In this document: positions 2,725-43,099 of the stretch, one piece after another
How positions within the stretch are numbered: the first letter of the stretch is position 1
How the letters are laid out: every line of letters begins with the position of its first letter
From: Synechococcus sp. RS9909
Lineage (GTDB): Bacteria > Cyanobacteriota > Cyanobacteriia > PCC-6307 > Cyanobiaceae
Length of the DNA stretch: 64,000 nt
Reading direction: 5' to 3'
Assembly (NCBI RefSeq): GCF_014279595.1
Contig: NZ_CP047943.1
Span: forward strand, 2,354,422 to 2,418,421
Notes under the pieces: model-generated
What the model was told of the DNA's origin: nothing
Database searches by the model: none
Seen by the model: only the letters and a program-made list of their open reading frames with translations
Position numbers and translations under genes: made by a program

Positions 2725-3258
2725 TCAGCGTCCAGGCATCGCCTCGAGATACCGGGCGGCTCCGATCGACTGGAGGCGGGCATCCTTGGCCACCACCGTG
2801 GCGTGCAACTCGTGGCGATAGTCGGCCAGGCGTTGCGTCAGCTCCCCATCGGTGGTGGCGAGAATCTGGGCCGCCAGCAGGCCGGCATTGAGGCCACCGC
2901 CGATCGCCACCGTGGCCACGGGTATTCCGCCGGGCATCTGCACGATCGAATGCAGTGAATCCACACCGGAGAGCGCCCGGCTCTGCACTGGCACGCCGAT
3001 CACCGGCAGGGTAGTGAGGGAAGCGACCATGCCGGGCAGATGGGCCGCGCCACCGGCACCGGCCACGATCACCCGCAGACCGCGATCCCTGGCCTGCTGA
3101 GCAAAGTCGACCATCTCCAACGGTGTGCGATGGGCCGACAACACGCGCACCTCCACCGCCACACCCAAACGCTCCAGCACCTCCACAGCGGGTTGCAGGG
3201 TGGGCAGATCGGAATCACTGCCCATGATCACCGCCACCCGGGGTGCAGTCGTAGCCAT
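2725..3258 (-). CDS. purE: N5-carboxyaminoimidazole ribonucleotide mutase (PurE class I)
   Basis: PurE moves the carboxyl group of N5-CAIR to form CAIR in purine synthesis. The 177-residue length fits class I PurE. The expected motifs occur in order: [10 protein letters not shown] near residues 12-21, SAHRTP near 41-46 with the catalytic His, [10 protein letters not shown], and the [14 protein letters not shown] stretch. The ATG at 3258 lies 63 nt from the divergent nagA start, so the short gap should hold both promoters. Nothing unusual was seen. Confidence 0.95.
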
Positions 3259-3321
3259 GGCGTTGTCGTCAACGGAGCGAGACTGTCATCGTGTCGCAGC
3301 CGCCGCTGCCGGTCAGGCCCC

Positions 3322-4488
3322 ATGCAACGGATCACCGATGTGCGTCTGCCCCGCCGACCGGGTGAGACCTCCAGCCCGGCGCTGTGGTGGCTGCAGCTGG
3401 ATGCAGCGGGCTGCATCGATGCCCTGGGGCCCATGCCGGAGCGGGCCGCCTTGCGCGGCCAGAGCTGGAACGGTGACTGGCTCAGCCCGATGGGCGTGGA
3501 TCTTCAGATCAATGGCGGCCTCGGACTGGCCTTCCCGGAACTGACGGCGGCGGATCTGCCTCGGCTGCTGCAGTTGCTGGACCAGCTCTGGCGCGACGGC
3601 GTGGAAGCGATTGCCCCGACCCTGGTGACCTGCGCGGTGGAGCCGCTGCGCCGGGCCCTGGCGGTGCTGCGGCAGGCGCGCGAGCAGCACCAACCCCAGC
3701 GCTGCTGCCTGCTCGGCGCCCATCTGGAAGGTCCGTTTCTGGCGGAGGCGCGCCGGGGGGCCCATCCACGCGAGCACCTCTGTGCGCCGAGCCTTGACGC
3801 GCTTGAGCAACGCATCGCCGGCTTCGAGCATGAGATCGCCCTGGTGACCCTGGCGCCGGAACTGGCGGGCGCTGAAGCGGTGATCGAGCGCTTGCGGGCG
3901 CTGGGCATTGTGGTGGCACTCGGTCACAGCGCCGCTGATGCCGACCAGGCCCATGTCGCGTTCGACAGGGGGCTGGCCATGCTGACCCACAGTTTCAATG
4001 CCATGCCAGGACTGCATCACCGCGCGCCAGGCCCCCTGGGTGCGGCCTGTCGTCAGGGCTGCATTGCTCTGGGGCTGATCGCCGACGGGGTGCATGTGGA
4101 CCCGACGATGGCCGTGCTTCTGCAACGGCTTGCCGGGGATCAGCTGGTGCTGGTGAGCGATGCCCTGGCGCCCTATGGCCTCGCCGATGGCCAGCATCGA
4201 TGGGATGAACGGGTGCTGCGGGTGGAGAACGGCACCTGTCGCCTCGAGGACGGCACCCTGGCTGGCGTCACCCTCCCCCTGCTGGAGGGGGTGCGGCGCC
4301 TGGCGCGCTGGGGTGGCGAGTGTGAGGGGGCGATCTGGGCCGCCACCCTGGCGCCGAGAGCGGTGCTCGCGGGCACAGACGTGGACGCGATCGCCTGGCG
4401 CAGCCTGTTGCTGCAGCAGCCACTCGCCAACCTGCTGCGCTGGAGCGCCGGAGCGGATGGTGATCTGCACTGGCGACACGCTGCTTAG
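3322..4488 (+). CDS. nagA: N-acetylglucosamine-6-phosphate deacetylase
   Basis: This cytosolic amidohydrolase deacetylates GlcNAc-6-P during amino-sugar turnover or wall recycling. It is 388 residues long, the usual size. Metal and substrate motifs are visible: HLEGPFL with the metal-ligand Glu, LGHSAADADQA, TLTHSFNAM-like THSFNAMPGLHHR, IADGVHV, and VSDALAPYG with the catalytic Asp. The ATG at 3322 was chosen over a far-upstream in-frame start that runs antisense through purE. It precedes chlM by 32 nt on the same strand. Whether the cell takes up exogenous GlcNAc cannot be read from this window. Confidence 0.9.
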   Translation: MQRITDVRLPRRPGETSSPALWWLQLDAAGCIDALGPMPERAALRGQSWNGDWLSPMGVDLQINGGLGLAFPELTAADLPRLLQLLDQLWRDGVEAIAPTLVTCAVEPLRRALAVLRQAREQHQPQRCCLLGAHLEGPFLAEARRGAHPREHLCAPSLDALEQRIAGFEHEIALVTLAPELAGAEAVIERLRALGIVVALGHSAADADQAHVAFDRGLAMLTHSFNAMPGLHHRAPGPLGAACRQGCIALGLIADGVHVDPTMAVLLQRLAGDQLVLVSDALAPYGLADGQHRWDERVLRVENGTCRLEDGTLAGVTLPLLEGVRRLARWGGECEGAIWAATLAPRAVLAGTDVDAIAWRSLLLQQPLANLLRWSAGADGDLHWRHAA

Positions 4489-4520
4489 GATCCCGCCGAT
4501 CTGCCCGCCCGTTCACCCTG

Positions 4521-5234
4521 ATGGCCCCCGACCAGCTGCTGGAGCAAACCAAGGCCGAGAAACAGGAGGTGAAGGGTTACTTCGAATCCACCGGTTTCGA
4601 TCGCTGGAACCGCATCTACAGCGACTCCGACGATGTGAACAAAGTGCAGCGGAACATCCGCATCGGCCACCAGAAAACGGTGGATGAAGTGCTGCAGTGG
4701 ATCCAAACCAGCGGCGTGTTCCGCGACGTGAGTTTCTGCGATGCAGGCTGCGGCGTCGGCAGCCTCGCCCTGCCCCTGGCGGCCATGGGAGCCGGCTCCG
4801 TCCAGGCGAGCGACATCTCCGACGCGATGGTGCAGGAGGCGAAACGACGGGCGCAGGAGGCGGGGCTGGCCCTGGACACACTCCACTTCCACACCTCCGA
4901 TCTGGACAGCCTCAGCGGCTCCTTCCACACCGTGTGCTGCCTGGATGTGTTCATCCACTATCCCCAGGCTCCGGCGGAGGCCATGGTGCGTCACCTCTGC
5001 AGCCTCTGTGAGGAACGCCTGATCGTGAGCTTTGCCCCCTTCACCCCTGTGCTGGCCCTGCTCAAGGGGATCGGCCAGCTGTTCCCGGGCCCGAGCAAAA
5101 CCACCCGTGCCTACACCCTCAGAGAAGAGGGCATCGTGAGGGCCGCGATGGCCTGCGGCTTTCAACCGATGCGCCGCAGCCTGAACACGGCTCCGTTCTA
5201 TTTCTCACGCCTGATCGAGTTCAAACGCGCCTGA
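4521..5234 (+). CDS. chlM: Magnesium-protoporphyrin IX O-methyltransferase
   Basis: ChlM methylates Mg-protoporphyrin IX with SAM in chlorophyll synthesis and acts at the membrane surface. The 237-residue protein has the SAM-binding glycine motif CDAGCGVGSLALPLA at about residues 73-87 and the family-typical VKGYFESTGFDRWNRIYSD N-terminus. The C-terminal part with FAPFTPVLALLKGIGQLFPG and the final FYFSRLIEF also fits ChlM. Its 3' end overlaps the convergent RluA-like gene by 37 nt. This gene is strong evidence for a phototroph. Confidence 0.95.
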   Translation: MAPDQLLEQTKAEKQEVKGYFESTGFDRWNRIYSDSDDVNKVQRNIRIGHQKTVDEVLQWIQTSGVFRDVSFCDAGCGVGSLALPLAAMGAGSVQASDISDAMVQEAKRRAQEAGLALDTLHFHTSDLDSLSGSFHTVCCLDVFIHYPQAPAEAMVRHLCSLCEERLIVSFAPFTPVLALLKGIGQLFPGPSKTTRAYTLREEGIVRAAMACGFQPMRRSLNTAPFYFSRLIEFKRA

Positions 5235-6226
5235 TCGCGCAGGGGCTCGGGCAACGGCGCCTCCAGATCCAGCAGGCCTCCATCCGGAGACGCCAACTGC
5301 AACCGATGGGCATGCAGGTGGTAGCCCCCCTCCCCTGGCAAGGACTGATCAGAAGCGCCACCACCGGGCAGGTAAAGCGGATCACCCAGCAGCGGCGCCC
5401 CGGCGGTGGCGGCGTGGATGCGGATCTGATGGGGCCTGCCGCTGGCGATCACCACCTCCACCAGGCAGCTCTCCGGCCGCCGCTCCAGCAGGGTGAAGCT
5501 GCTGCGGGAGGGCAACGCCGTAGCAACCGATGGATCGGCGGCGCACCAGATCTCCCCCAGCAACGGATGGGGATGCCGGCCGATCGCAACGGTGACCTCG
5601 CGGGATTCGCCCAAGGGCCAGTCGGGTGGCAGAGGCTCCGTGAGGGCGCGATAGACCTTGCGGCAGGCCGAGGCGGCGCCGTCAGCGGTGCTGTCGCGCA
5701 GCAACCGACTCAGCCAGGCGCGGCTCTCGGGCCGGCGGGCACACACCAACAGGCCGGAGGTGAAACGCCCGAGCCGATGCACCGGCTTGGGCGCCAGCGG
5801 CTCCCCCTGCTCCCGGCTCCACAGCACCAGCTGATGGCTGAGCGTGTGCACCAGAAAGCCGCCGGCCGGCATCACCGGCAGCCCCGAGGGCTTGTTGATC
5901 ACCAGCACATCGCCATCGTCGTGCAGGGTTTGCCAGTGCTCGGGAATCGCCGGCTCGACCCAGGGGGGGCGCTGCCACCGAATCCGATCGCCAGCGGCGA
6001 CCACGACATCCCCCTGCAGCAGCCGGCCATTGAGGCCAAGCTCGCCGCTCTGCAACCGCTGCCGCCAGGTCGCAGCCGAGGAGTGGCGGTAGCGGTCCGC
6101 CAGCCATGCACTCAACAGCTGGCCCGACTGACCAGCGGCCACACGATCGCGGTAGACCCAGCCCTGATTGAACGCCGCCGGTCGCCATCCCGGCAGCGCT
6201 CGCCCCGCAGGGCCAGCCCCTCTCAC
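5198..6226 (-). CDS. RluA-family pseudouridine synthase-like protein lacking the usual catalytic Asp
   Basis: The 342-residue protein has an S4-like N-terminus (SWLADRYRHSSAATW onward) and an RluA catalytic fold containing VLVINKPSGLPVMPAGG and GRPHQIRIHAA. At the catalytic loop the codons read HRLGRFTSGLLV, whereas canonical RluA enzymes have HRLDxxTSG, where the Asp is the nucleophile. The Gly codon is clear on the minus strand near position 5775. It may therefore use different chemistry or only bind RNA. The start at 6226 overlaps the stop of the response-regulator gene by 4 nt, implying coupling. A second, canonical family member lies at 45901-46890. Confidence 0.8.
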   Translation of the reverse strand: MRGAGPAGRALPGWRPAAFNQGWVYRDRVAAGQSGQLLSAWLADRYRHSSAATWRQRLQSGELGLNGRLLQGDVVVAAGDRIRWQRPPWVEPAIPEHWQTLHDDGDVLVINKPSGLPVMPAGGFLVHTLSHQLVLWSREQGEPLAPKPVHRLGRFTSGLLVCARRPESRAWLSRLLRDSTADGAASACRKVYRALTEPLPPDWPLGESREVTVAIGRHPHPLLGEIWCAADPSVATALPSRSSFTLLERRPESCLVEVVIASGRPHQIRIHAATAGAPLLGDPLYLPGGGASDQSLPGEGGYHLHAHRLQLASPDGGLLDLEAPLPEPLRDQARLNSIRREK

Positions 6227-6975
6227 TCCACCAGGCGGTGCTGCAAGGCAAAGCGCACCAGCTCGGTGCGACTGGAGGTGCCGGTCTTGATGAACAACCG
6301 GCTCACATATTTCTCCACATTGCGGATCGAAGTCTCCAACTGGCGGGCGATCTCCTTGTTCATCAGCCCCTCAGCCACCAGTTGCAACACACTCGCCTCC
6401 CGTGGCGTGAAGCTCAGCTGCGGCGCCTCCGCCGCCGCGACCGCCTCCGCCGCCGCTCCAGAGAGCATCGAACGGATCTCATTGATCTGCCGCGCCATCT
6501 GGCCCACATCCGCATCAGCAAAGCGGGCCGCTTCGGCCAGGAGCCGGTCCTGACGCCGCACCACATTGCGCACGCGCGCCACCAGTTCCTCGGGATCAAA
6601 CGGCTTGGGGATGTAGTCATCCACGCCGGCCAGATATCCCTGGGTGCGATCGGCGGTCATCCCCTTGGCGGTGAGAAAGATCACCGGGGTGCCGCCCAGG
6701 CGCTCGTCTTCGCGCATGCGACTGAGCAAGCCGTAGCCATCGCAGCGCGGCATCATCACGTCGCTGATCACCAGATCGGGCAACAACTGCTGGGCCTTGG
6801 CAAAACCCTCCTCGCCATCCACCGCGGTGGTCACGTCAAAGCCCTCGTCCTCGAGGTAGGCCTGCACGGCGCTGCGCAAACCGGGTTCGTCATCGACCAG
6901 AAGCAGGCGGGGGGTGGGGTGGGACGCCTCCGCGGTGGCCGGCGGTTCCTGATCGGCAGGACGGGGAGTCGTCAT
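6223..6975 (-). CDS. NarL/FixJ-type DNA-binding response regulator
   Basis: This is a two-component output protein of 250 residues. The receiver domain (about residues 22-145) has the acidic pair in LLVDDEPGLRSAV, the phospho-acceptor Asp in PDLVISDVMMP, the Thr of FLTAKG and the Lys of DYIPKPFDPEEL. A Q/A-rich linker leads to a LuxR-type HTH (SFTPREASVLQLVAEGLMNKEIARQL region) at the C-terminus. It resembles the cyanobacterial/plastid Ycf29 type, but I am not sure of the orthologue. ATG at 6975 is preferred to one 17 codons upstream. No histidine kinase is adjacent. Confidence 0.88.
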   Translation of the reverse strand: MTTPRPADQEPPATAEASHPTPRLLLVDDEPGLRSAVQAYLEDEGFDVTTAVDGEEGFAKAQQLLPDLVISDVMMPRCDGYGLLSRMREDERLGGTPVIFLTAKGMTADRTQGYLAGVDDYIPKPFDPEELVARVRNVVRRQDRLLAEAARFADADVGQMARQINEIRSMLSGAAAEAVAAAEAPQLSFTPREASVLQLVAEGLMNKEIARQLETSIRNVEKYVSRLFIKTGTSSRTELVRFALQHRLVE

Positions 6976-7009
6976 GGCCGGATGCTGCACTGGCGAAAAT
7001 CTAGAAGCG

Positions 7010-7543
7010 TCAGGGGCCTGGCACACGCAGGGTTTCCGTGGTTTCCGTGAGCAAACCGCTGTAGCCGAGTTGCCGTGCCTGGTCGGCCAGCGTCGCCGGG
7101 TCCTTGCCCGCCTCGGCAGGCACGCAGGCCGCCCACCACACCAGATGGTCCTCCCGGTTGCTGTCGTTCACCACCCCGCCCGGGTTGAGGCGGCGGATGT
7201 AGATCGCGTCCTGATCGCGGGTGACCCGCAGGGGCTCCGTGGTGCTGCAGTTCACCGATTCGGTGGGCACCACCAGATCGTTGGGATATTCCTTCCAGAG
7301 CTTGTAGCGGCGAAGATCCGGATCCGAATCGTCGCCCTTGATCGCAAAGATCGCCAGGGTGTAGTCGCCACCAGCCATCGGCTTGGTCTCCAGCACGATC
7401 AGATCGGCGGGACGCATGCGCTTCATCTGCTCCAGCAGCTCCCCCCGCTCGATCGCTTCCGCAGGGCCAGCCCCCACGGAAAGGGCACTCAGCGAGAGCC
7501 CGGCAGCCAGGCCCAGACTGCAGAGGCGGAAAACGGTGTCCAT
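7010..7543 (-). CDS. Secreted hypothetical protein, cyanobacterial type
   Basis: From the ATG at 7543 the protein is 177 residues with a clear signal peptide: MDTVFRLCSLGLAAGLSLS, then a small-residue stretch ending GPAEA near residue 29. The mature part is soluble, with two cysteines (VNCST and WAACVP) that could form a disulfide outside the cytosol. I do not recognise a domain. It sits 34 nt upstream of the response-regulator start on the same strand and is divergent from the cysteine desulfurase, with only 25 nt between starts. In-frame ATGs at 7570 and 7588 would overlap that gene. Function unknown. Confidence 0.75.
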   Translation of the reverse strand: MDTVFRLCSLGLAAGLSLSALSVGAGPAEAIERGELLEQMKRMRPADLIVLETKPMAGGDYTLAIFAIKGDDSDPDLRRYKLWKEYPNDLVVPTESVNCSTTEPLRVTRDQDAIYIRRLNPGGVVNDSNREDHLVWWAACVPAEAGKDPATLADQARQLGYSGLLTETTETLRVPGP

Positions 7544-7568
7544 CCCGATCAGGAGCAAACGCCACACC

Positions 7569-8741
7569 ATGCTGCCAAGCCCGGCCAAGACGGATCCAAT
7601 CTGCCTCGACTACCAGGCCACCACCCCCTGCGCCGCCGAGGTCATCGAAGCGATGGCACCGTGGTGGCGTGAGCACTGGGGCAATCCCTCCAGCCGCCAG
7701 CACCGCCTCGGGCTGATGGCCGCCGCCGCCGTGAGCGAGGCCCGGGAGCGACTGGGCCGCTGCCTTGGTGTGACGCCGGAGCGGATCGTCTTCACCAGCG
7801 GCGCCACAGAGGCCAACAACCTCGCCCTGCTCGGCCATGCGCGCGCCCTTGCACGACAACGGGGCAGACCCGGCCATCTGATCAGCGTGGCCACGGAACA
7901 TCACGCCGTTCTCGATCCCTTGCGCCAGCTGGAACGGGAGGGCTTTCAGCTCACCCTGCTCACACCGGCTGAGGATGGCCTGCTCCAACCGGCCCAGCTG
8001 GAAGCGGCGCTCCGCGACGACACCCAGTTGGTGAGCGTGATGGCCGCCAACAACGAAATCGGTGTGCTGCAGCCGCTGGCGAGCCTGGGCCGGCTGTGCA
8101 GGGAGAGGGGCATCACCTTGCACAGCGATGGCGCCCAGGCGTTCGGAGCCATGGCTTTTGAGCCCGATGCGCTCGGTATTGATCTCACCAGCCTCAGCGC
8201 CCATAAGATCTACGGTCCCAAGGGCATCGGCGCCCTCGTGCGACCCCTGGCCTTGCCGATCGAACCGCTGCAATGGGGCGGAGGCCAGGAGGGAGGGCTG
8301 CGACCGGGGACGCTGCCCGTACCCCTGATCGTGGGCTTCGCAACAGCCGCCGAGCTGGCCCTGCGCGATCAAGACCGGCGCACGCAGCGGCTGCGACAGT
8401 GGCGCGACCGGCTCTGGAGGGGCCTAAGGACCGCCCTACCGGATCTGCTCTGCAACGGCACCCTGGAACAGCGCCTGGCCCACAACCTCAACATCACCAT
8501 TCCAGGGGTGAGCGGCAGCCGCCTGCATCAGCAGCTGCGGCGACACGTGCTCTGCAGCAGCGGTTCCGCCTGCAGCCGCGGCGAACCATCCCATGTGCTG
8601 AGGGCACTCGGCCGCAGCCGCCAGGAGGCCGAGGCCTCGCTGCGACTCAGCCTCGGTTGGGCCACCACGGAGCATGAGATCGACGCAGCCATTGCAGCGA
8701 TTGCCGAAACGGTCACAAGGCTGCGCGCGTCAGCGTTGTGA
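7569..8741 (+). CDS. Cysteine desulfurase (NifS/IscS family, class V aminotransferase)
   Basis: This PLP enzyme takes sulfur from cysteine for Fe-S clusters or thiolated tRNA. It is 390 residues. Visible features are the N-terminal YLD-like CLDYQATTP, GNPSSRQH, FTSGATEANNLAL, the PLP-Lys motif SLSAHKIYGPKGIGAL, and the active-site Cys in SSGSACSRGEPSHVL. The extended loop with SGSAC is that of class I NifS/IscS enzymes. The ATG at 7569 is inside the divergent promoter gap. No scaffold gene adjoins it, so iscS versus nifS cannot be settled. Confidence 0.92.
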   Translation: MLPSPAKTDPICLDYQATTPCAAEVIEAMAPWWREHWGNPSSRQHRLGLMAAAAVSEARERLGRCLGVTPERIVFTSGATEANNLALLGHARALARQRGRPGHLISVATEHHAVLDPLRQLEREGFQLTLLTPAEDGLLQPAQLEAALRDDTQLVSVMAANNEIGVLQPLASLGRLCRERGITLHSDGAQAFGAMAFEPDALGIDLTSLSAHKIYGPKGIGALVRPLALPIEPLQWGGGQEGGLRPGTLPVPLIVGFATAAELALRDQDRRTQRLRQWRDRLWRGLRTALPDLLCNGTLEQRLAHNLNITIPGVSGSRLHQQLRRHVLCSSGSACSRGEPSHVLRALGRSRQEAEASLRLSLGWATTEHEIDAAIAAIAETVTRLRASAL

Positions 8742-8805
8742 CAGACAACCTGAAAAAAACAGTTAAACCCGCTACTTTCCGCCCAGATCCGCATCGCTCC
8801 AGAGC

Positions 8806-33592: not shown

Positions 33593-34345
33593 GTGGCGAC
33601 CCTCCGGCAGCGCTGCGTTGGCGCACTGCTGATCAGCCCGGTGCTGTTGCTGATCACCAGCCTCTGCTGCGGGCCTCTCCAGGCGGTGCCCCGGCGCCTG
33701 ATCATCCTGCGCCATGGCGAAAAAGCGAATCCGTATGCCCTCTGTGGCATCGGCCAGCAACGGGCCATCGCTCTGCGCGGCACCTATCTGGGCCGCGACG
33801 CCACCGAATCCGTGATTCCCCCCGGGGAATCCCCGGCAGCTTTCTTAGCCATGACCCTGCACACGGTGGAACTGGCCACACCCTCCGCCCAGAGTTGGGG
33901 ACTGCCGGTCACCACCTACGCCGTGGTGCCGATGGAGGGCCGCCCGGAACACGTGAAACGCGAGCAGGAAATCGAGAGCGTGCAAACCGCCGCCGCCGAT
34001 GTGCTGAACAACCCGGCCTGGCATGACCGCACCGTGGTGATCACCTGGGAACACAGCACCATTGCTCGCGAGAAGCTCGAACGCGAACACCCGGGCGAAG
34101 CCGTGACCTTCCGCCAGCTGCTGCACCTCGACACCCTCGCGAACGTGCCCAGGAGCTGGGCCGGCAACAACTACGACTACCTCTGGATCGTGGACTATGC
34201 CCCGGAGATCTCCGATCAACCCACAGGGTTCAGGCTGCAACGGCAACGGTTTCCAGCTCCGTTCCAGGCCCTGCCCCACAACCTCTGGGGCACCCCACTG
34301 CCCGCCGATTACCCAGCGAGCTGTGAACGCAAGGTGAGCAACTGA
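33593..34345 (+). CDS. Exported histidine-phosphatase-like protein, copy 1
   Basis: The 250-residue protein starts at a GTG (33593) with a signal peptide (VGALLISPVLLLITSLCCG) cleaved around residue 31. The mature protein begins PRRLIILRHGEKANPYALC, which fits the phosphoglycerate-mutase-like RHG phosphohistidine motif. A second His occurs in ITWEHSTIAREKLE, as expected for the partner active-site His. The substrate is unknown and the body has diverged from known phosphatases. It is closely related to the next gene, 1 nt downstream, so they form a tandem pair. Confidence 0.78.
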   Translation: MATLRQRCVGALLISPVLLLITSLCCGPLQAVPRRLIILRHGEKANPYALCGIGQQRAIALRGTYLGRDATESVIPPGESPAAFLAMTLHTVELATPSAQSWGLPVTTYAVVPMEGRPEHVKREQEIESVQTAAADVLNNPAWHDRTVVITWEHSTIAREKLEREHPGEAVTFRQLLHLDTLANVPRSWAGNNYDYLWIVDYAPEISDQPTGFRLQRQRFPAPFQALPHNLWGTPLPADYPASCERKVSN

Positions 34346-34346
34346 G

Positions 34347-35087
34347 ATGGGCCAATTCCACACTCCGCCTTCAAGGGCATGGCAGCGATTCGGCATGGTG
34401 CTGTGCATGGCCATCGCCGCAGGCAGCATGGCCACGGCTGACGCCGTACCCCGCCGCATCATCCTGGGGCGCCATGGCGAAAAAGCGAATGCCTATGCCC
34501 TCTGCAAACAAGGGCAGCAACGCTCCCTGGCCCTGCGCGATCAGTTTCTGGGACGTTCGGCCCGCAGCCAGGCTCTGCTGGAAGGGCAGCAACCGGTCGC
34601 CTTCCTGGCGATCACCCCGCACACCCTGGAAACCCTCGCTCCCTCCGCCCGCAGCTGGTCGCTGCCGGTGGTGATGTTCTCCCAGGTGCCCCAACAAGGG
34701 GAGTCGACCGCCACGAAGCGACAGCTGCAGCAGCAACGCACCCGCGAAGCGGCCGCCCAAGTGCTCAGCAACCCAACCTGGGCAGGCGGCACCGTGGTGA
34801 TGGCCTGGGAGCATCGCACCATTGCCAACCAACAACTCGCCGAACGCTTCCCTGATCAGCCAGTGACCCTGCGACAGCTCCTGAACCTGGATCAGCTGCC
34901 GGGTGTTCCCGACACCTGGCCCGATGACACCTACGGCTGGATCTGGATCATCGACTACGCCAACGCTCCCTCTCCTATCCCCACGGGCTTCCGGATGGTG
35001 CGGGAAGCCTTCGCCACTCCCTACAGCCACCTGAAGGCTCCGGCCTGGGGAACGCCGGTGCCACAGGCTGCCGGCTGCCTGCCCTGA
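34347..35087 (+). CDS. Exported histidine-phosphatase-like protein, copy 2
   Basis: A 246-residue paralogue of the preceding protein, with a signal peptide (GMVLCMAIAAGSMATADA) and shared motifs: PRRIILGRHGEKANAYALC, GQQRSLALRDQFLGR, MAWEHRTIANQQLAE, VTLRQLLNLDQLPGVP and the shared IVDYA/IIDYA plus PTGFR blocks. Tandem duplication is evident. Note that ILGRHGEK replaces the LRHGEK of copy 1. The pair faces the ClC-like gene, whose stop is 7 nt away. Confidence 0.78.
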   Translation: MGQFHTPPSRAWQRFGMVLCMAIAAGSMATADAVPRRIILGRHGEKANAYALCKQGQQRSLALRDQFLGRSARSQALLEGQQPVAFLAITPHTLETLAPSARSWSLPVVMFSQVPQQGESTATKRQLQQQRTREAAAQVLSNPTWAGGTVVMAWEHRTIANQQLAERFPDQPVTLRQLLNLDQLPGVPDTWPDDTYGWIWIIDYANAPSPIPTGFRMVREAFATPYSHLKAPAWGTPVPQAAGCLP

Positions 35088-35094
35088 AACTCCG

Positions 35095-36399
35095 TCAGGT
35101 CAACGCACGGCACAAGCCCTCGGTGCCGTGTTCATTCCAGCCGGTGCCGCGCAGGGGAGCAGCGCAAGCGACAGCGACGGCACTACAGAGCAGCAGCAAC
35201 GGCAAGATCTGCGGATCGCCCTGAAGCGTGAACACAAACAGGGCACAGAACACCGGCGTGCCGCAGGCAGCGGCAAAGAGGGCCGTCGCCCCGACCGCCG
35301 CCAGCTGCCCCCGCTCCGCCGTCACCATCCCCCCATGCCAGGCGGCAGTCCAGGCGATCAGCCGCTCCGAGAGGAGCGAGCCGAGGGTCATGGTGTCGTG
35401 CATCAGCCCGCCGGGGGCTCCGGCCGCGATGCTCAACCAGGAGGAGAGCGTGCGCCAGAGAACAGTGGTTGGAACTCCGCCCGATCCGCCCGCCAGCGCC
35501 GCATCCAGCGACAGCCCACCGTCGTTGAGGCTGAGACCACCACTGCCGAGGGCGATCAGAAGCAGCGCCAGAGCGATCAGCGCTGCACCCCACCAGCGCT
35601 GCCGGCGCAGGCCAGCCGCCAACCAGCCGGAGAGCGGAATCAACACCTTCACAAACAGGGCACCGGCCATCGCAGCGATCAGCGTGATCACCAGCGCCAG
35701 GCCCCACCACTGAATCGGCACCGCGGCGAACGCCGCCTGACCCCCAGGCGCTGCCTGCGGCAGCACAGCCTGCAGGAGCAGGGTGCCGCTGCCACCGAGG
35801 AGCAGCGTGGGCAACACGAGATCGAGCCCCTTCTGCCGGCTCAGTTCCTCCAGGGCATAGGCCGTGCCCAGCAGAGGCGAGCGGAACGCCGCACCGAGTC
35901 CGGCACCGCCGCCGATGGCGGCGACAAGGGGAAGCGACAGACCCGCCAGGGGCTGGGCAGCGGGCCAGCGGCGTCGGATCGCCAGAAGCAGCGCCGCGCC
36001 GAGGGAAGCCGATGGCGACTCGATCCCCACCGTGAGGCCGCCCAGGTGGGTGAAGAGCATCAAGGGAAGACGCCGCAGCTGGGTGCGCAGGTCGAGGCGA
36101 TCAAGCAGGGCAGCCTGCTGAGCCGATGGCGCCTGTTGCAGCGCCAGCAAGGGGGGCAAGCCGCCGCCACGGGCTCTGCGCAAGGGTCCCCAGGCCAGCC
36201 ACACCGTGAGGAAGGAACCGGCGAACACCAGCAAGGCGCCAACACCCCGATTCACAACCGCTCCCCCCACCAGCCCAGGCAACGCCCAGAAGCGCTGCTG
36301 CAAGGCGAAACCGAGGGAAGACAGCGCCTGGTAGGGCTGCTCCACCAGGGCCAGGAGAAGACCGAGCAGGAGGAACCAAACCAATCGCAAGGCGGTCAT
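35095..36399 (-). CDS. Divergent ClC-family chloride channel-like protein
   Basis: The 434-residue polytopic protein has a ClC-like order: an early GGGLPPLLAL segment in place of GxGIPE, a VGIESPSASLGAALL stretch where GREGPxVQ is expected, the family-like GGGAGLGAAFRSPLLGTAYALEE, and GAPGGLMHDTMTLGSLL where GxFxP would lie. So the fold seems conserved while the anion-pathway motifs are changed. It follows the methyltransferase by 12 nt and is the last gene of a four-gene minus-strand run starting at rel. Transported ion unknown. Confidence 0.72.
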   Translation of the reverse strand: MTALRLVWFLLLGLLLALVEQPYQALSSLGFALQQRFWALPGLVGGAVVNRGVGALLVFAGSFLTVWLAWGPLRRARGGGLPPLLALQQAPSAQQAALLDRLDLRTQLRRLPLMLFTHLGGLTVGIESPSASLGAALLLAIRRRWPAAQPLAGLSLPLVAAIGGGAGLGAAFRSPLLGTAYALEELSRQKGLDLVLPTLLLGGSGTLLLQAVLPQAAPGGQAAFAAVPIQWWGLALVITLIAAMAGALFVKVLIPLSGWLAAGLRRQRWWGAALIALALLLIALGSGGLSLNDGGLSLDAALAGGSGGVPTTVLWRTLSSWLSIAAGAPGGLMHDTMTLGSLLSERLIAWTAAWHGGMVTAERGQLAAVGATALFAAACGTPVFCALFVFTLQGDPQILPLLLLCSAVAVACAAPLRGTGWNEHGTEGLCRALT

Positions 36400-36411: not shown

Positions 36412-37227
36412 TCAGGGGCGCACGCCCCGGGCGAGGAACACACCCACAAAGGCCCAGGCCCTGGGATCGTCCACCAGGGCATCGGCGGCCTCCAATGTGG
36501 CGCGGGCCGCTTCGAGTTCCTCTCCCTCAAGCAACAGGCGCTTGAAGCCGAGGGTGATGTCGAGGAATGCCCGCATCCCGAGCTGTCGCGACGTCACCGT
36601 CTCCACATGCACGTCGACCGGGTCGTAGCCGCTCTCCTCCAGCAGGCGACCGAGCTGGCGACCGATCAGACGATTGCCACCGCGCCGCTCCTGGGCGCGA
36701 GCCGCAGCCGCCGTGAAGCTGGCGAAGCCCTCCGGTTCGGGAACCAACGTCAACCAGCTGTCGTCGATATCAAAAATGCACAGCACACCGCCGGGCTTCA
36801 GCAGGGCGCGGATCGCCTCCAGCGCCTGCAACGGCTTCTCGAGGTGCTGGAACAGCAGCCGGGCGTAAATGAAATCAAACTGCCCCTGCTCCAGGGGAGG
36901 GGCATACACATCTCCCTGCACAAACCGAATCGACGCCAACCCCGCGGTCGCCGCTTCTTCGCGGGCGGCGGCGAGCAACGCACCGTTGAGATCCATGGCC
37001 GTGACCTGCGACTTGGGATGGGCCTGGGCGATCAATCGACTGATCACCCCGGGGCCGCAGGCCAGATCCAGCACCGCCTGGCCATCCGCCAATCCCATCC
37101 TCTCGAGCAGCTGCAGTTCAAGCTGGGCCGAACGCTGAGCCTGAAGCTGAAGCCGCTCCAGTTCACCACTCTCATCACCGAGGGCGGTAAAGTCATAGGA
37201 GCCGGCGGCGTTGGGGTTGGTCGTCAT
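36412..37227 (-). CDS. SAM-dependent methyltransferase (class I)
   Basis: The 271-residue protein is a class I methyltransferase: motif I VLDLACGPGVISRLIA, motif II VTAMDLNGALL, FVQGDVYAPPLEQGQFDFIY and the post-I block LLFQHLEKPLQALEAI. The C-terminal half is a substrate cap of unknown specificity. The start (ATG 37227, alternatively 37236) lies within the last codons of the acyltransferase-CNB gene, so the two are probably made together. The substrate could be the product of that neighbour, but this is inference. Confidence 0.85.
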   Translation of the reverse strand: MTTNPNAAGSYDFTALGDESGELERLQLQAQRSAQLELQLLERMGLADGQAVLDLACGPGVISRLIAQAHPKSQVTAMDLNGALLAAAREEAATAGLASIRFVQGDVYAPPLEQGQFDFIYARLLFQHLEKPLQALEAIRALLKPGGVLCIFDIDDSWLTLVPEPEGFASFTAAAARAQERRGGNRLIGRQLGRLLEESGYDPVDVHVETVTSRQLGMRAFLDITLGFKRLLLEGEELEAARATLEAADALVDDPRAWAFVGVFLARGVRP

Positions 37228-38386
37228 CGGGGGCATCCCAGCTGAGCTGAAGTAGGCGTTCCGTTGTGCTGGAGAGGCGTTCCGACAGCACCAGCGCCAG
37301 GTTACGCAGCACGAGCGCCATGGCATCCGGTTGGGTGCGCAGCGCCTTGTTCAGAAAGGCCTGGGTGAGCACCAACACCCGCGTGTCCGTGGCCGCCACC
37401 ACATCGGCACTGCGTTGCCTGCGGCCGAGGAAGCCCATCTCACCGAACACATCGCCGGGCTTGAGCACAGCAAGCCCCAGGCGTTGCCCCTGATGCTGCC
37501 GACTCACCTCGGCAAAGCCCTCCATCACCACGAACAGATCCTGCCGAGGCTCCCCTTCCGAAACGATGCGATCTCCGGCGGCGCACTGCAGCACGGTGCC
37601 GGTTTTCAGCAGACGACGGGACTGCTCATCGCTCAACCCCTGCAGAAGCGGCAGACCCTGCCCGGGCTGACGCAGGGCCTCGCCAGCGAGCTCCCAGAAC
37701 TGATCGGGATTCACCAGGCGATGGTTCAGCCCCCAATACCTCTGAGACTGCTGATCCAGCCAACGCCCATCGGCCTCTGCATCGACGCATTGGGCCAGCG
37801 CCGGATGACGCATCAGGGGAGAACGACTCCGGCGCAGATGGTCGCGATCGCGGAGGGCCAGCAACATCGGCACCTGATAGCCCACACCAGGCCAGGCGAT
37901 GCCGGCACAGAAGCGGCGATACCCCAGCTGCTCATACAGCTCGATCAAGCCGGGATGGGCATGGCAGAGGTCCAATCGGATGCCCTGCGCAAGGGCATCG
38001 GCAAAGCAACGGTTGAACAACAACCCGAGGGAGCCGCCGCCGCGCCAGTCGGCGCGAAGCATGAGCCTGGAGGTGTAAGACAGCGCTTCCAGGGGCGCCT
38101 GCTCCAGCAGAGGATCCAGGGCAATCGGGCGCAGGGCCTCCCGGGCTGACGCCAGGGCGGCGAGGCGATTGAAACGCAGCGTGCCGACCAGGGCACCGTC
38201 GCCATCGTGGAGCACATACAGGCTGGCACTGGCATCAAAGCGGTCGGTGAGCTCACGGCGCTCATGGTTGGCATCCGGTGGAGACTTGCCCATCTCCTCC
38301 ACATACACCGCATAGCGAAAGCGATACACCTCCTGCCGCTCGGCCTCCGAGACGGCCAGCGACACAGTGGTGAGCGGATCGGTCAA
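37193..38386 (-). CDS. Autoinducer-synthase/FeeM-like GNAT acyltransferase fused to a cNMP-binding domain
   Basis: The N-terminal half (about residues 1-200) resembles LuxI/FeeM-type N-acyl amino-acid or homoserine-lactone synthases: VYRFRYAVYVEEMGKSPP, DASASLYVLHDGDGALVGTL and SRLMLRADWRGGGSLGLLF. The C-terminal part (about 245-375) is a CRP-type cyclic-nucleotide domain with GDVFGEMGFLGRRQRSADVV, keeping the Glu and Arg that normally hold the nucleotide. No DNA-binding HTH follows. So acylation may be gated by cAMP or cGMP. A TTG at 38386 is the best start (GTG 38365 also fits), 18 nt after rel. Product unknown. Confidence 0.8.
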   Translation of the reverse strand: MTDPLTTVSLAVSEAERQEVYRFRYAVYVEEMGKSPPDANHERRELTDRFDASASLYVLHDGDGALVGTLRFNRLAALASAREALRPIALDPLLEQAPLEALSYTSRLMLRADWRGGGSLGLLFNRCFADALAQGIRLDLCHAHPGLIELYEQLGYRRFCAGIAWPGVGYQVPMLLALRDRDHLRRSRSPLMRHPALAQCVDAEADGRWLDQQSQRYWGLNHRLVNPDQFWELAGEALRQPGQGLPLLQGLSDEQSRRLLKTGTVLQCAAGDRIVSEGEPRQDLFVVMEGFAEVSRQHQGQRLGLAVLKPGDVFGEMGFLGRRQRSADVVAATDTRVLVLTQAFLNKALRTQPDAMALVLRNLALVLSERLSSTTERLLQLSWDAPDDDQPQRRRLL

Positions 38387-38404: not shown

Positions 38405-40738
38405 TCAGCTCTGCCCGGTGCGGGCGATGTCGAGCACATCGGCCATGGAGCGGATCTGCGCCATGGTGCGCTGCAACTGCTCCACACTGCTGATCTCCAC
38501 CCGCAGATCAATCCGAGCCGGTTTGTCGTAAGCGGTTTTCACCCGGGCATCACTCACGTTGATCGAACCATCGGACAGACGCATGAGGATGTCTTTAAGA
38601 ATGCCGACGCGGTCGATCACCTCGATGCGCAACTGGGCCGGGAAGCGCAGACCATGGCGAGTCACCGCCGGGTTCCAGCTCACCGGCAGACGACGTTCAC
38701 TGGGAATCGCCTCCACGTTGGCGCACTCCTGCCGGTGGATGGTGATGCCGTGATTGCCAAGCGCCACCGTGCCCACGATCGCTTCACCCGGCAAGGGGCT
38801 GCAACACCCACCGAGCCGGTAGTCGAGTCCCTCCACGCCGAGAATCGGCACCGTGGATCCCTGGGATGGGCGCGGCGACGACGCTTCCGCCTGCTCCACC
38901 AAACGACGCGCCACATCCTCATTGCTGAGGGGCTGGGCCGCCGCTGCGGTCTGCAGGCGGATTTCCTCCCGCAGGCGATTGAGCACCTGATGCAGCGTGA
39001 CCGCGCCAAACCCAAGGGCCGCCAACAGATCATCCGTGCTGTGGAGATTGCAGCGCTCAGCCACCCGCGTCATCGCGTCGCTGTGCAACAAGGCATCGAA
39101 TCCATTGCGGCCCAGCTCCTTCTCCAGCAGATCCTTGCCCCGCTGGATCGTTTCATCCCGATGGCTGCGCTTGTACCACTGGCGGATGCGGTTGCGAGCG
39201 GTGGGTGTGGCAACGAAATTCAGCCAATCGAGGCTGGGATGGGCTGTTTTGCTGGTGAGAATCGTGATGAAGTCGCCGTTTTGCAGAGGGGTCGACAACG
39301 GGGAGAGGCGATCGTTGATGCGCACGCCATGGCACTGGTTGCCCACTTCGGAGTGGATGCGATAGGCGAAATCCACGGCCGTTGATCCTTTGCGGAGGCC
39401 CACCACATCCCCCTTCGGGGTGAACACGAACACCTCCTCATCGAACAGGTCTTCCTTGATCGAGGCGAGGTAGTCGTTGTGGTCATCAGCGCCACCCTCC
39501 TGCTGCCAGTCGACCAGTTGCCGCAACCAGTTGAAGCGTTCGGTGTCACCTCCCGCAGCCGGCGAGCCGCCCTCCTTGTATTTCCAGTGGGCCGCAATGC
39601 CGAATTCGGCCACCTGATGCATCTCCAGGGTGCGGATCTGCACTTCAATCGGTCGGTGCCGGCCGATCACAGCCGTGTGCAACGACTGATAGCCATTCGG
39701 TTTGGGCAGACCGATGTAGTCCTTGAAGCGTCCGGGAATGGGCCGAAACGTGTCGTGCACCACCGCCAGCGCCCGATAGCAACTCTCCACGTTGGGCGTG
39801 AGGATCCGCAGCGCTGCCACGTCGTAGATCTCGTGGAACGCCTTCTGCTGCCGCTGCATCTTGCTCCAGATGCCATAAAGGTGCTTCGGCCTGCCGCTCA
39901 CCTCGCAGCTGTCGAGCCCCACCGCTGCCAGGCGATCGCTCAGCAGCTTGACGGTGACGCCGAGCCGTTCCTCCCGCTCGCTGCGCTTGGTGGCCACCTC
40001 CTGCTGGATCTCGCGGAAGGCATCGGGTTCCAGCAGCTTGAAGGCGAGATCCTCGAGCTCCCACTTGAAGCGACCAATGCCGAGACGGTTGGCCAGGGGG
40101 GCGTAGATCTCCCGCGTTTCCCGGGCGATGCGCTGGCGTTTCTCTTCCTTCAGCGCCCCCAGGGTGCGCATGTTGTGCAGCCGATCGGCCAGCTTCACCA
40201 GCACCACACGGATGTCGCTGGCCATGGCCAGAAACATCTTGCGCAGGTTCTCGGCCTGGGCTTCCGTGCGATTGGTGAAGTGGAGCCCGCCCAGCTTGGT
40301 GACCCCCTCCACCAGCTCCCGCACTTCCGCACCGAAATGACTCTCGAGCTGGGCGGGGGTCAGGTCGGTGTCTTCCACCACATCGTGGAGAAAGCCGGCG
40401 GCGATCACCGGCGCACTGGCGCCGATGTCGCGGAGCAGGTCGGCCACCGCCACCGGGTGCACGATGTAAGGGTCACCACTGGCCCGGAACTGGCCCTGAT
40501 GCAGCTGGAAGGCGAAATCGAACGCAGCCGCCAGCAACGCCTCCGGATCGGTTGGACAGCTGTAGCCCTCACCGGGGGGCACATGGGTGAGGCACTCCCG
40601 CAGCCAGTCGGGCAGATCGATGCCGTAATCCTCGATCGTGCGAATCGGATGCACCCGCTGCACAGGCTGGTCGCAGGGCTCTGCAGCACGGACCGCATCG
40701 GTCTGGGGCTGTTCCGGCGCAGAGGTGACGTTCAGCAT
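38405..40738 (-). CDS. Bifunctional (p)ppGpp synthetase/hydrolase (Rel/SpoT)
   Basis: The 777-residue protein controls (p)ppGpp. An HD hydrolase domain (HPVAVADLL, GFLHDVVEDTDL, LADRLHNMRTLGAL) is followed by the synthetase domain (GIGRFKWELEDLAFKLL, GIWSKMQRQQKAFHEIYDV, PNGYQSLHTAVIG), TGS (VFVFTPKGDVVGLRKG), a Cys/His-rich helical part and a C-terminal ACT domain (LRIEVIDRVGILKDIL). Both active sites look intact. The ATG at 40738 is divergent from the ABC gene. It heads the run with the acyltransferase-CNB, methyltransferase and ClC-like genes. Confidence 0.95.
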   Translation of the reverse strand: MLNVTSAPEQPQTDAVRAAEPCDQPVQRVHPIRTIEDYGIDLPDWLRECLTHVPPGEGYSCPTDPEALLAAAFDFAFQLHQGQFRASGDPYIVHPVAVADLLRDIGASAPVIAAGFLHDVVEDTDLTPAQLESHFGAEVRELVEGVTKLGGLHFTNRTEAQAENLRKMFLAMASDIRVVLVKLADRLHNMRTLGALKEEKRQRIARETREIYAPLANRLGIGRFKWELEDLAFKLLEPDAFREIQQEVATKRSEREERLGVTVKLLSDRLAAVGLDSCEVSGRPKHLYGIWSKMQRQQKAFHEIYDVAALRILTPNVESCYRALAVVHDTFRPIPGRFKDYIGLPKPNGYQSLHTAVIGRHRPIEVQIRTLEMHQVAEFGIAAHWKYKEGGSPAAGGDTERFNWLRQLVDWQQEGGADDHNDYLASIKEDLFDEEVFVFTPKGDVVGLRKGSTAVDFAYRIHSEVGNQCHGVRINDRLSPLSTPLQNGDFITILTSKTAHPSLDWLNFVATPTARNRIRQWYKRSHRDETIQRGKDLLEKELGRNGFDALLHSDAMTRVAERCNLHSTDDLLAALGFGAVTLHQVLNRLREEIRLQTAAAAQPLSNEDVARRLVEQAEASSPRPSQGSTVPILGVEGLDYRLGGCCSPLPGEAIVGTVALGNHGITIHRQECANVEAIPSERRLPVSWNPAVTRHGLRFPAQLRIEVIDRVGILKDILMRLSDGSINVSDARVKTAYDKPARIDLRVEISSVEQLQRTMAQIRSMADVLDIARTGQS

Positions 40739-40794
40739 CCAACCCGACGGGGTCAATCCATGGTATTGACTCAGGTGTCCCCGTGCTCCCCCTG

Positions 40795-42399
40795 ATGTCC
40801 ACCCCGGCGGCAGCGGTGCTGGAGCTGGACCAGCTGCAATTGCGTTACCCAGGCAGCGACCGCTGGACCCTCGATGGGTTGGATCTGCAGCTGGCGCAAG
40901 GGGAGCGGCTCGCCCTGGTGGGCCCGTCCGGCTGCGGCAAAAGCACGGTGGCGCGGGCGGTGCTCCAGTTGCTGCCGACGGGCAGCCAATGCCGGGGTGG
41001 CCTGCGTCTGCGCGGGCAGGATCCGCGCCAGCTGAGCCGCAGCGCCCTGCGCCGACTGCGCGGCGAGGCGGTGGGCCTGGTGTTTCAGGATCCGATGACA
41101 CGGCTGAACCCGCTGATGACTGTGGGGCGTCACCTGAGCGACACCCTCAGCGCCCACCGGACGACCTGGCCGGCATCCGCCAAGCGAGAACGGGCGGAAC
41201 AGTTGCTGGAGGCGGTGGGCATCGGTGCCGAGCGCTTCAGCGCCTACCCGCATGAATTCAGCGGTGGCATGCGGCAGCGTCTGGCGATCGCCCTGGCCAT
41301 CGCCCTTGATCCGCCGCTGGTGATCGCCGATGAACCCACCACCAGCCTCGATGTGGCCGTGGCGAACCAGGTGATGGGCGTGCTGCAGGGCCTCTGTGCG
41401 GAGCGGGGAAGTGCCCTGCTGCTGATCAGCCATGACCTGGCCATGGCCCACCGCTGGTGCGAACGGATGGCAGTGCTGGATCAGGGCCGGGTGGCCGAGC
41501 TGAGCAGCAGCCAGGCGGTGCTGACCCAGCCCCACTCCGACGTGGGCCGGCGTCTGGTGGCGGCAGCGCGCCAGCGGGAGGGAGGGGCAACGCCCACAGC
41601 TCCAGAGAGTCGACTGCTGCTCCGCGTGGAGAACCTGCGTTGCTGGCACAACCTGGGAGGACCTCCCTGGTCGCCCACCTGGCTGAAAGCGGTGGATGGG
41701 GTGAGCTTTGCGCTGCAGGCCGGCGAATCCCTGGGGGTGGTAGGCGGCTCGGGATGTGGCAAAAGCACGCTCTGCCGCGCCCTCATGGGCCTGAACCCGA
41801 TTCGGGGCGGGCGGGTGTGGCTCAACGGTGAGAATCTGTTGCGCCTGCGAGGGGAGCGGGAACGCGCCGCTCGACGCTCCCTTCAGATGGTGTTTCAAGA
41901 TCCGCTCGCCTGCCTCAACCCGGCCATGCCGGTGGGGGAAGCGATCGCCGATCCGCTCCTGATCCATCGGCTGGCCAGCACGGCAGCCGCCCGGGAACGG
42001 GCCCGGGAGCTGCTGAAGCTGGTGGGCCTGACTCCGGCCGAAGAGTTTCAGAACCGCCGGCCCCGGCAGCTCTCGGGTGGGCAGCAACAACGGGTGGCGA
42101 TCGCCCGCGCCCTCGCCCTCGAACCGCAGGTGCTGATCTGTGATGAAAGCGTGAGCATGCTCGATGCCGAGATCCAGGCGGAGGTGCTCGGCCTGTTGCG
42201 GGCGCTGCAGCAACGGCTGGGTCTGGCGATGATCTTCATCACCCACGACCTGTCGGTGGCCAGTGGCTTCTGCCACCGGGTGATCGTGCTCGACCACGGC
42301 CAGATCGTGGAGGAAGGCCCCGGGGATCAGCTGCTGCGCGCACCCGCTGCGGCGATCACCCGAAAGCTGGTGGCGGCGTGTCCGCGATTGCCCACCTGA
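40795..42399 (+). CDS. Fused two-ATPase ABC protein, dipeptide/oligopeptide importer type
   Basis: The 534-residue protein has two ABC ATPase domains in tandem, like a DppD-DppF fusion. Domain 1 has Walker A GPSGCGKST, signature FSGGMRQRLAIALA and Walker B LVIADEPTTSLD; domain 2 has GGSGCGKST, LSGGQQQRVAIARA and LICDESVSMLD. Both nucleotide sites look complete. No permease or binding-protein gene lies in the window, so the rest of the importer must be elsewhere. ATG at 40795 is preferred to GTG at 40783. The LuxR-type gene follows after 4 nt. Confidence 0.9.
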   Translation: MSTPAAAVLELDQLQLRYPGSDRWTLDGLDLQLAQGERLALVGPSGCGKSTVARAVLQLLPTGSQCRGGLRLRGQDPRQLSRSALRRLRGEAVGLVFQDPMTRLNPLMTVGRHLSDTLSAHRTTWPASAKRERAEQLLEAVGIGAERFSAYPHEFSGGMRQRLAIALAIALDPPLVIADEPTTSLDVAVANQVMGVLQGLCAERGSALLLISHDLAMAHRWCERMAVLDQGRVAELSSSQAVLTQPHSDVGRRLVAAARQREGGATPTAPESRLLLRVENLRCWHNLGGPPWSPTWLKAVDGVSFALQAGESLGVVGGSGCGKSTLCRALMGLNPIRGGRVWLNGENLLRLRGERERAARRSLQMVFQDPLACLNPAMPVGEAIADPLLIHRLASTAAARERARELLKLVGLTPAEEFQNRRPRQLSGGQQQRVAIARALALEPQVLICDESVSMLDAEIQAEVLGLLRALQQRLGLAMIFITHDLSVASGFCHRVIVLDHGQIVEEGPGDQLLRAPAAAITRKLVAACPRLPT

Positions 42400-42403
42400 G
42401 CCG

Positions 42404-43099
42404 ATGGGCACCTCCCTGAGACCACTGGGTGACATCGAACGGGCCCGCCGGATCCGAAGACTGATCCATGATCAGGATCTGCTGGTGTGCCTCTACCCCC
42501 ATCTGTTTGCTGTGAAACAGATGGCCCGGCTGGCGGGCATGCACAGCCCCAAAGAACGGCGGTTCCTCGACTCCAGAGCCGAAGCCATCGGCTACCTGGA
42601 GAGCGTCAACACACCCCACTGGTTATTGATCTCCGAACAGCTGAGTGATGGTTCCGGGCTGGAGCTCTTGCGCGACTGCAAGCGTCTGAACAGCAACCAT
42701 CGCTGCTTGCTTCTCCTCAATCGCCCCAGGAAAGACAGCCTGCGTCTGGCCCGTCAACTGCGGGCGGACGCCTGCATCGATGAGCGCAGTGTGGAGCAAC
42801 GCTCCGGCGCCCTGATCGCTGCGCTGCAAGCCTTGAAGGACGGTCACCGCTATCTGGATCCGCTCCTGGGGGAGGCGAACGTGATGGAGCCGTCCGATCA
42901 GGGAGTGGTCCTCTCGGAGCGACAACTGGAGATCCTGGCGTTGGTGGCCGAAGGCCTCAGTAACCGCGAGATCGCAACCCAACTCCAAATCACAGCGAAC
43001 ACGGTGCGCGATCACCTCAGCGAGATCATGCAACGCCTGGGGGTGGGAAACCGGGCCAGCGCCGTCTCCTCCGCCCTGCGTCTCAGGCTGATTCCCTGA
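42404..43099 (+). CDS. LuxR-type regulator with degenerate receiver domain
   Basis: The 231-residue protein ends in a LuxR/NarL HTH (SERQLEILALVAEGLSNREI, NTVRDHLSEIMQRLGVGNR). The N-terminal 150 residues have a receiver-like layout (LLISEQLSDGSGLELLRDCK, HRCLLLLNRPR), but the acidic pocket and Lys of normal receivers are not obvious, and a helix (DLLVCLYPHLFAVKQMARL) precedes it. It may sense something other than phosphorylation. It is placed between the ABC fusion and the cellulose-binding-like protein, which suggests local control of one or both. Confidence 0.82.
   Translation: MGTSLRPLGDIERARRIRRLIHDQDLLVCLYPHLFAVKQMARLAGMHSPKERRFLDSRAEAIGYLESVNTPHWLLISEQLSDGSGLELLRDCKRLNSNHRCLLLLNRPRKDSLRLARQLRADACIDERSVEQRSGALIAALQALKDGHRYLDPLLGEANVMEPSDQGVVLSERQLEILALVAEGLSNREIATQLQITANTVRDHLSEIMQRLGVGNRASAVSSALRLRLIP

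Follow-up and report, generated by a model that had tools for sequence, protein, structure and literature searches.

To our knowledge, and in the literature searched, LuxI/FeeM-class synthases of signal lipids are regulated through transcription and have no second-messenger sensor joined to them, and those GNATs that have been described as cAMP-gated acetylate proteins. In the stieleriacine cluster proposed for planctomycetes, N-acyl synthases occur together with a desaturase and a methyltransferase (PMC7293339). We found no description of a GNAT-cNMP fusion in the open-access full-text literature. A protein of this architecture is encoded in the 64,000-nucleotide stretch of Synechococcus sp. 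RS9909 DNA analyzed here (the window). It is a predicted acyl synthase of the FeeM-like kind that ends in a cNMP-binding domain and has a partner methyltransferase; we infer its gating and its product.

The fusion gene (37193..38386, minus strand; exact open reading frame boundaries) encodes 397 residues. With nine orthologues in two genera and evidence of purifying selection, it is a real gene. The TTG start codon lies 18 bp past the stop codon of spoT and is preceded by GGGAG; this start is plausible, since in the relatives G557 and G547 the matching residue is encoded by ATG (MTDP and MNDP). No second copy of the fusion was found in the host genome, which is a single 2.6-Mb contig (G000).

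The protein begins with a GNAT domain of the LuxI/FeeM class (residues about 6–200; 37787..38371, minus strand), followed by a CRP-like cNMP-binding (CNB) domain with a C-terminal helix (residues about 240–384; 37235..37669, minus strand), the latter supported by Pfam and by cAMP/cGMP-binding domains in the PDB that it matches in both sequence and fold. Three Pfam families match above their curated cut-offs: cNMP_binding (E 1e-19, residues 267–351), Acetyltransf_5 (E 9e-9, residues 23–123), and FeeM (PF21926; E 1.6e-7, residues 19–172), the last with a modest margin (31.7 bits against a cut-off of 27). Among 12 aligned homologues, the CNB domain is present in all, FeeM and Acetyltransf_5 are matched by 11, and Acetyltransf_1 and Acetyltransf_10 are also matched by five. 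Matches to the NCBIfam models for OlsB and for the PEP-CTERM-associated acyltransferase (TIGR03694) stay below cut-off (26.0 against 350 bits, and 26.4 against 111.95 bits), and the NCBIfam Pat model matches the CNB domain only (E 6.8e-7; 28 bits against a cut-off of 460). The order GNAT to CNB is constant among all homologues. The initial annotation had placed a GNAT domain N-terminal to a cNMP-binding domain at this locus, in the order opposite to that of mycobacterial Pat; Pfam and the 12 homologues bear out the first point, and the second is right as well (PMC8556138).

The PDB fold matches of a model of the whole protein (pLDDT 78.5, pTM 0.75) were CRP-family CNB domains only, and a separate model of the GNAT domain was therefore made. 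This AF2 model (pLDDT 88, pTM 0.85) has TofI, FeeM (several chains), LasI and BjaI as its top PDB fold matches in Foldseek, with FeeM chains at ranks 2, 3, 5 and 9 (TM about 0.69–0.71). With these as the best solved structures, the modelled domain passes the proposed check, which a fold without a LuxI/FeeM-type cleft would have failed. The same fold list also holds many acetyl-CoA GNATs. A profile search of the PDB placed BjaI and other AHL synthases among the best sequence matches, at low significance.

Positions of LuxI were placed on the fusion through an alignment with BjaI. R24, D51 and R71 are invariant in the 12 homologues, which reach down to about 28% identity, while Y28 and D48 are each found in 11 of the 12, as is R107 (lysine in the remaining one). 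We take residues R24, Y28, D48, D51, R71 and R107 of the fusion to be the equivalents of the LuxI signature residues R24, F28, D45, D48, R70 and R104. W34 and E101 (LuxI numbering) are also signature residues of LuxI, and their equivalents are replaced, by K/R at position 34 and by Y/H/F/M/V at position 104. The acetyl-CoA P-loop Q/R-x-x-G-x-G/A, as defined in PMC8556138, is absent from all 12 homologues. Since neither W34/E101 nor a Pat-type P-loop is present, an AHL synthase is not supported and a Pat in reverse, whose GNAT belongs to another class, is very improbable; both candidates were rejected. Hence, of the suggested likeness to autoinducer or N-acyl amino-acid synthases, the FeeM-like part is supported and the AHL-synthase part is not.

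The phosphate-binding cassette of the CNB domain, FGEMGFLGRRQRSA (residues 314–327; 37406..37447, minus strand), contains E316, R325, S326 and A327 and overlaps the motif GEMGFLGRRQRSADVV (residues 315–330). All 12 homologues, some of them only about 30% identical, share E316, R325 and A327, so that the conserved Glu and Arg of the cNMP pocket noted earlier are indeed kept. We align FGEMGFLGRRQRSA with FGELALIYGTPRAA of PKA RI-alpha, where E316, R325 and G318 correspond to E200, R209 and A202; the homologues have Gly or Ala, not Glu, at the A202 position. Nucleoside-binding CNB domains are marked by loss of the Arg together with a Glu at the A202 position (PMC10959531). By this criterion, the fusion has a pocket of the cyclic-nucleotide type rather than the nucleoside type. 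S326, which is replaced by Thr in four homologues of a distant family (f30), leaves both cAMP and cGMP possible as ligands. Among close pairs, dN/dS is 0.12–0.18 for the GNAT domain and 0.08–0.11 for the CNB domain; these low values indicate that both domains are in use, although a pairwise estimate is blind to the onset of relaxation in a lineage that lacks a cyclase.

The fusion gene is followed by a gene for a SAM-dependent methyltransferase (36412..37227, minus strand; 271 residues; Pfam Methyltransf_25, E 3.5e-22), the first 35 bp of which lie inside the 3' end of the fusion gene here; elsewhere the two genes are within about 40 bp of each other. This methyltransferase is a constant partner. 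It is found directly downstream of the fusion in all nine home-family genomes that carry it and, in a 201-genome sample of the home family, it shares exactly the same five genomes with the fusion, at an identity of at least 77%; at E 1e-20, no other match in the 201 genomes exceeds 34% identity. Upstream lies a RelA/SpoT-type (p)ppGpp enzyme (38405..41101, minus strand; Pfam HD_4, RelA_SpoT, TGS and ACT_4), the true start of which is probably near 40696, and downstream, in the same strand run, a ClC-type chloride channel/antiporter (35095..36399, minus strand; Pfam Voltage_CLC, E 2.8e-34).

The two-gene cassette follows spoT directly or follows Clc (in G009, one further open reading frame as well), and it precedes mnmE/DUF2062 wherever the contig extends that far; in G571, the contig ends before spoT. 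The arrangement spoT-(Clc)-mnmE without the cassette is seen in seven cassette-less genomes, and spoT is present in all nine such genomes tested. The constancy of the methyltransferase, together with presence or absence at the same site, indicates that the cassette is a two-gene unit at one chromosomal site. Clc is inconstant: it is missing beside the cassette in G543, G547 and G557 and present without it in G562 and G165, and it was rejected as part of the core. SpoT (78–99% identical between genomes) was likewise rejected as an obligate partner, being the constant neighbour of this site whether or not a cassette is there. Elsewhere in the window, two tandem related open reading frames (33593–34345 and 34347–35087), also present in G181, have RHGEKAN-type motifs and look histidine-phosphatase-like by eye, with no Pfam match at E 0.01. 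A LuxR/GerE-type helix-turn-helix regulator is encoded near the fusion (42404–43099), in which Pfam finds no autoinducer-binding domain.

The full-length fusion is rare yet spread over distant lineages. In the home genus, five genomes out of 31 have a homologue, and in a second genus four out of 25; none of the five occurrences in the 201-genome home-family sample falls outside these two genera. Beyond the home family, a 386-genome sample of the phylum yielded the fusion only in family f30, where four of five genomes carry it, two of them with two copies (six copies in all). A homologue of 28% identity is also carried by one MAG labelled Proteobacteria (SZAS-88; locus L033). FeeM-class GNATs in general are rare in the phylum: they were found above cut-off in at least seven of the 386 genomes, three of which are f30 genomes with the fusion; this is an undercount, as the six-frame family search behind it missed the fusion gene under study. 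In two f30 genomes, the second, divergent copies (L062 8983–10119 and L066 9001–10131) have changed GNAT loop residues and an intact CNB pocket.

A tblastn search of plasmids returned CNB domains only and no fusion, and spread by plasmids was rejected. The fusion tree separates the home genus from the second genus at 99/99, as does the SpoT tree at 100/100; no such resolution is reached in the methyltransferase tree. Transfer from one genus to the other is thus disfavoured. Because the fusion and SpoT trees both keep the genus split, one ancient gain followed by vertical descent and repeated loss is the simplest, though not a proven, reading.

The surroundings of the distant relatives differ from those in the home family. 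In f30, four of the six copies directly follow motB-motA (motB-motA-fusion runs at L061 7504–10128, L063 8932–11644, L064 4188–6895 and L065 1922–4635), which suggests a motility-linked role there. The L033 homologue lies in a run (2833–8787) with the order fatty acid desaturase, haem-oxygenase-like, fatty acid desaturase, haem-oxygenase-like, GNAT-cNMP, fatty acid desaturase, and PEMT/ICMT-type methyltransferase; within 3–5 kb of the fusion are also genes for an adenylate cyclase (about 5 kb away) and for a CNB protein in which one part looks patatin-like by eye. This run looks like an undescribed lipid pathway, and its gene content is the best evidence that the substrate may be a fatty acyl group, although it comes from a relative of 28% identity. 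In Phycisphaerae, a GNAT without a CNB domain is found between two haem-oxygenase-like genes (L034 5151–7360).

Gating would require a source of cyclic nucleotide. The host genome has one class III cyclase, with a CHASE2 domain, in which the metal-binding Asp pair and the Lys and Asn/Arg motifs are intact by eye. Its gene ends a run of an arginine-decarboxylase-like gene, an MscS-CNB channel and the adenylate cyclase (L090 1597–6916; about 2439596–2444915 of contig G000:C1), close to a Crp-like regulator (L090 13442–14128). A similar cAMP island is known from marine Synechococcus (PMC7522525). In the close relative G181, the channel and cyclase are gone from the corresponding place (L091), and a genome-wide search for class III cyclases came up empty even at E 10, while a 95%-identical fusion is intact; this weakens the case for gating by cAMP. 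With a cyclase in the host but none found in G181, gating of the predicted synthase by a cyclic nucleotide is no more than plausible. A cyclase match was found in 8 of 9 cassette genomes against 28 of 47 others, which is not significant (Fisher p 0.14), and co-occurrence was therefore rejected as a link. Three of the eight matches are weak; one of these was inspected, and its catalytic Asn is substituted.

The reading we favour, at a probability of roughly 45%, is a second-messenger-gated N-acyl synthase with a methyltransferase that acts on its product or a precursor. The FeeM/LuxI-class GNAT would take a fatty acyl group from its donor, probably acyl-ACP or else a long acyl-CoA, and attach it to an amine, with an amino acid or a similar small molecule as the likely acceptor. 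The CRP-like domain would bind a cyclic nucleotide through E316 and R325, most likely cAMP and possibly cGMP, and this binding would switch or tune the synthase; the adjacent enzyme would then methylate the product or its precursor. For this scheme, we infer the acyl donor and acceptor, the binding of the nucleotide, the direction of control and the methylation step. In its favour are the FeeM and Acetyltransf_5 matches, the TofI/FeeM/LasI/BjaI fold, the profile matches to BjaI and other AHL synthases, the retained LuxI-type positions, the missing P-loop, the pocket residues, the constant methyltransferase, the lipid setting at L033, the parallel with stieleriacine clusters and the CHASE2 cyclase of the host. 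Counting against it are the cyclase-less G181 and the non-significant cyclase link, the modest FeeM score, and the f30 copies, which mostly lie beside motB-motA and not beside lipid genes.

The observations in G181, where the cassette is intact and no class III cyclase was found, would be easier to understand if the protein were an N-acyl synthase whose CNB domain serves as a dimerisation or structural module, or senses another ligand, instead of acting as a cyclic-nucleotide switch; some CNB domains do bind other ligands, for example purine nucleosides in trypanosome PKA (PMC10959531). We nevertheless consider this unlikely, as E316, R325 and A327 are invariant across homologues that are about 30% identical, and purifying selection in close pairs is at least as strong on the CNB domain as on the GNAT domain.

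It is also conceivable, though rather improbable, that the GNAT half uses acetyl-CoA and has a LuxI/FeeM-like shape without long-chain use. The protein would then be a cNMP-gated acetyltransferase of a small molecule (an amine, a polyamine or an antibiotic-like compound), as the Acetyltransf_1 and Acetyltransf_10 matches in 5 of 12 homologues and the acetyl-CoA GNATs in the fold list would allow. The canonical P-loop is, however, found in 0 of 12 homologues, the top fold matches are acyl-ACP/acyl-CoA synthases, and the L033 gene is surrounded by desaturase and haem-oxygenase-like genes. Very improbable is a Pat of reversed order that acetylates protein lysines upon activation by cAMP, on a neighbour such as SpoT or on metabolic enzymes. 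In its favour are the two domain types that both proteins combine (Pat has a type III GNAT; PMC8556138), the match of the Pat model to the CNB domain, and the fixed place beside spoT; yet the GNAT half is of a different class without the P-loop, spoT is there in 9 of 9 cassette-less genomes tested, and the setting in f30 is different.

If the fusion is indeed a gated N-acyl synthase, cAMP would act on the enzyme itself to switch production of an N-acyl compound, linking a second messenger directly to a lipid signal, and the compound would be made in unicellular cyanobacteria, where such lipids are hardly known. More broadly, and only tentatively, we propose that picocyanobacteria share with a distant family of their phylum a group of N-acyl lipid synthases that cAMP or cGMP switches directly through a domain of the same polypeptide; the form with two genes, synthase and methyltransferase, would have come and gone at a single chromosomal site. 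The cassette is small, and a single genus includes both strains that carry it and strains that lack it.

Compared with known systems, the locus shares parts with each. The L033 homologue is surrounded by genes of the kinds that make up stieleriacine-type clusters, and in the window the fusion has a methyltransferase beside it, whereas the CNB fusion is not reported from those clusters and the cassette in the window consists of two genes only. Mycobacterial Pat (type III cAMP-GNAT; MSMEG_5458/Rv0998) likewise has one CNB and one GNAT domain per chain, with pocket residues of the cAMP kind, but its CNB domain comes first, and the GNAT of the fusion is of the LuxI/FeeM class without the acetyl-CoA P-loop. 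The LuxI-type AHL synthases TofI, LasI and BjaI have the same fold, and equivalents of LuxI R24, F28, D45, D48, R70 and R104 are kept in the fusion; those of W34 and E101 are not, and LuxI proteins have no CNB domain. FeeM itself (PDB 2g0b, PF21926) has no regulatory domain and is only 14–18% identical in structural alignments, yet it shares the GNAT fold (TM about 0.70) and a Pfam family that the fusion matches above cut-off.
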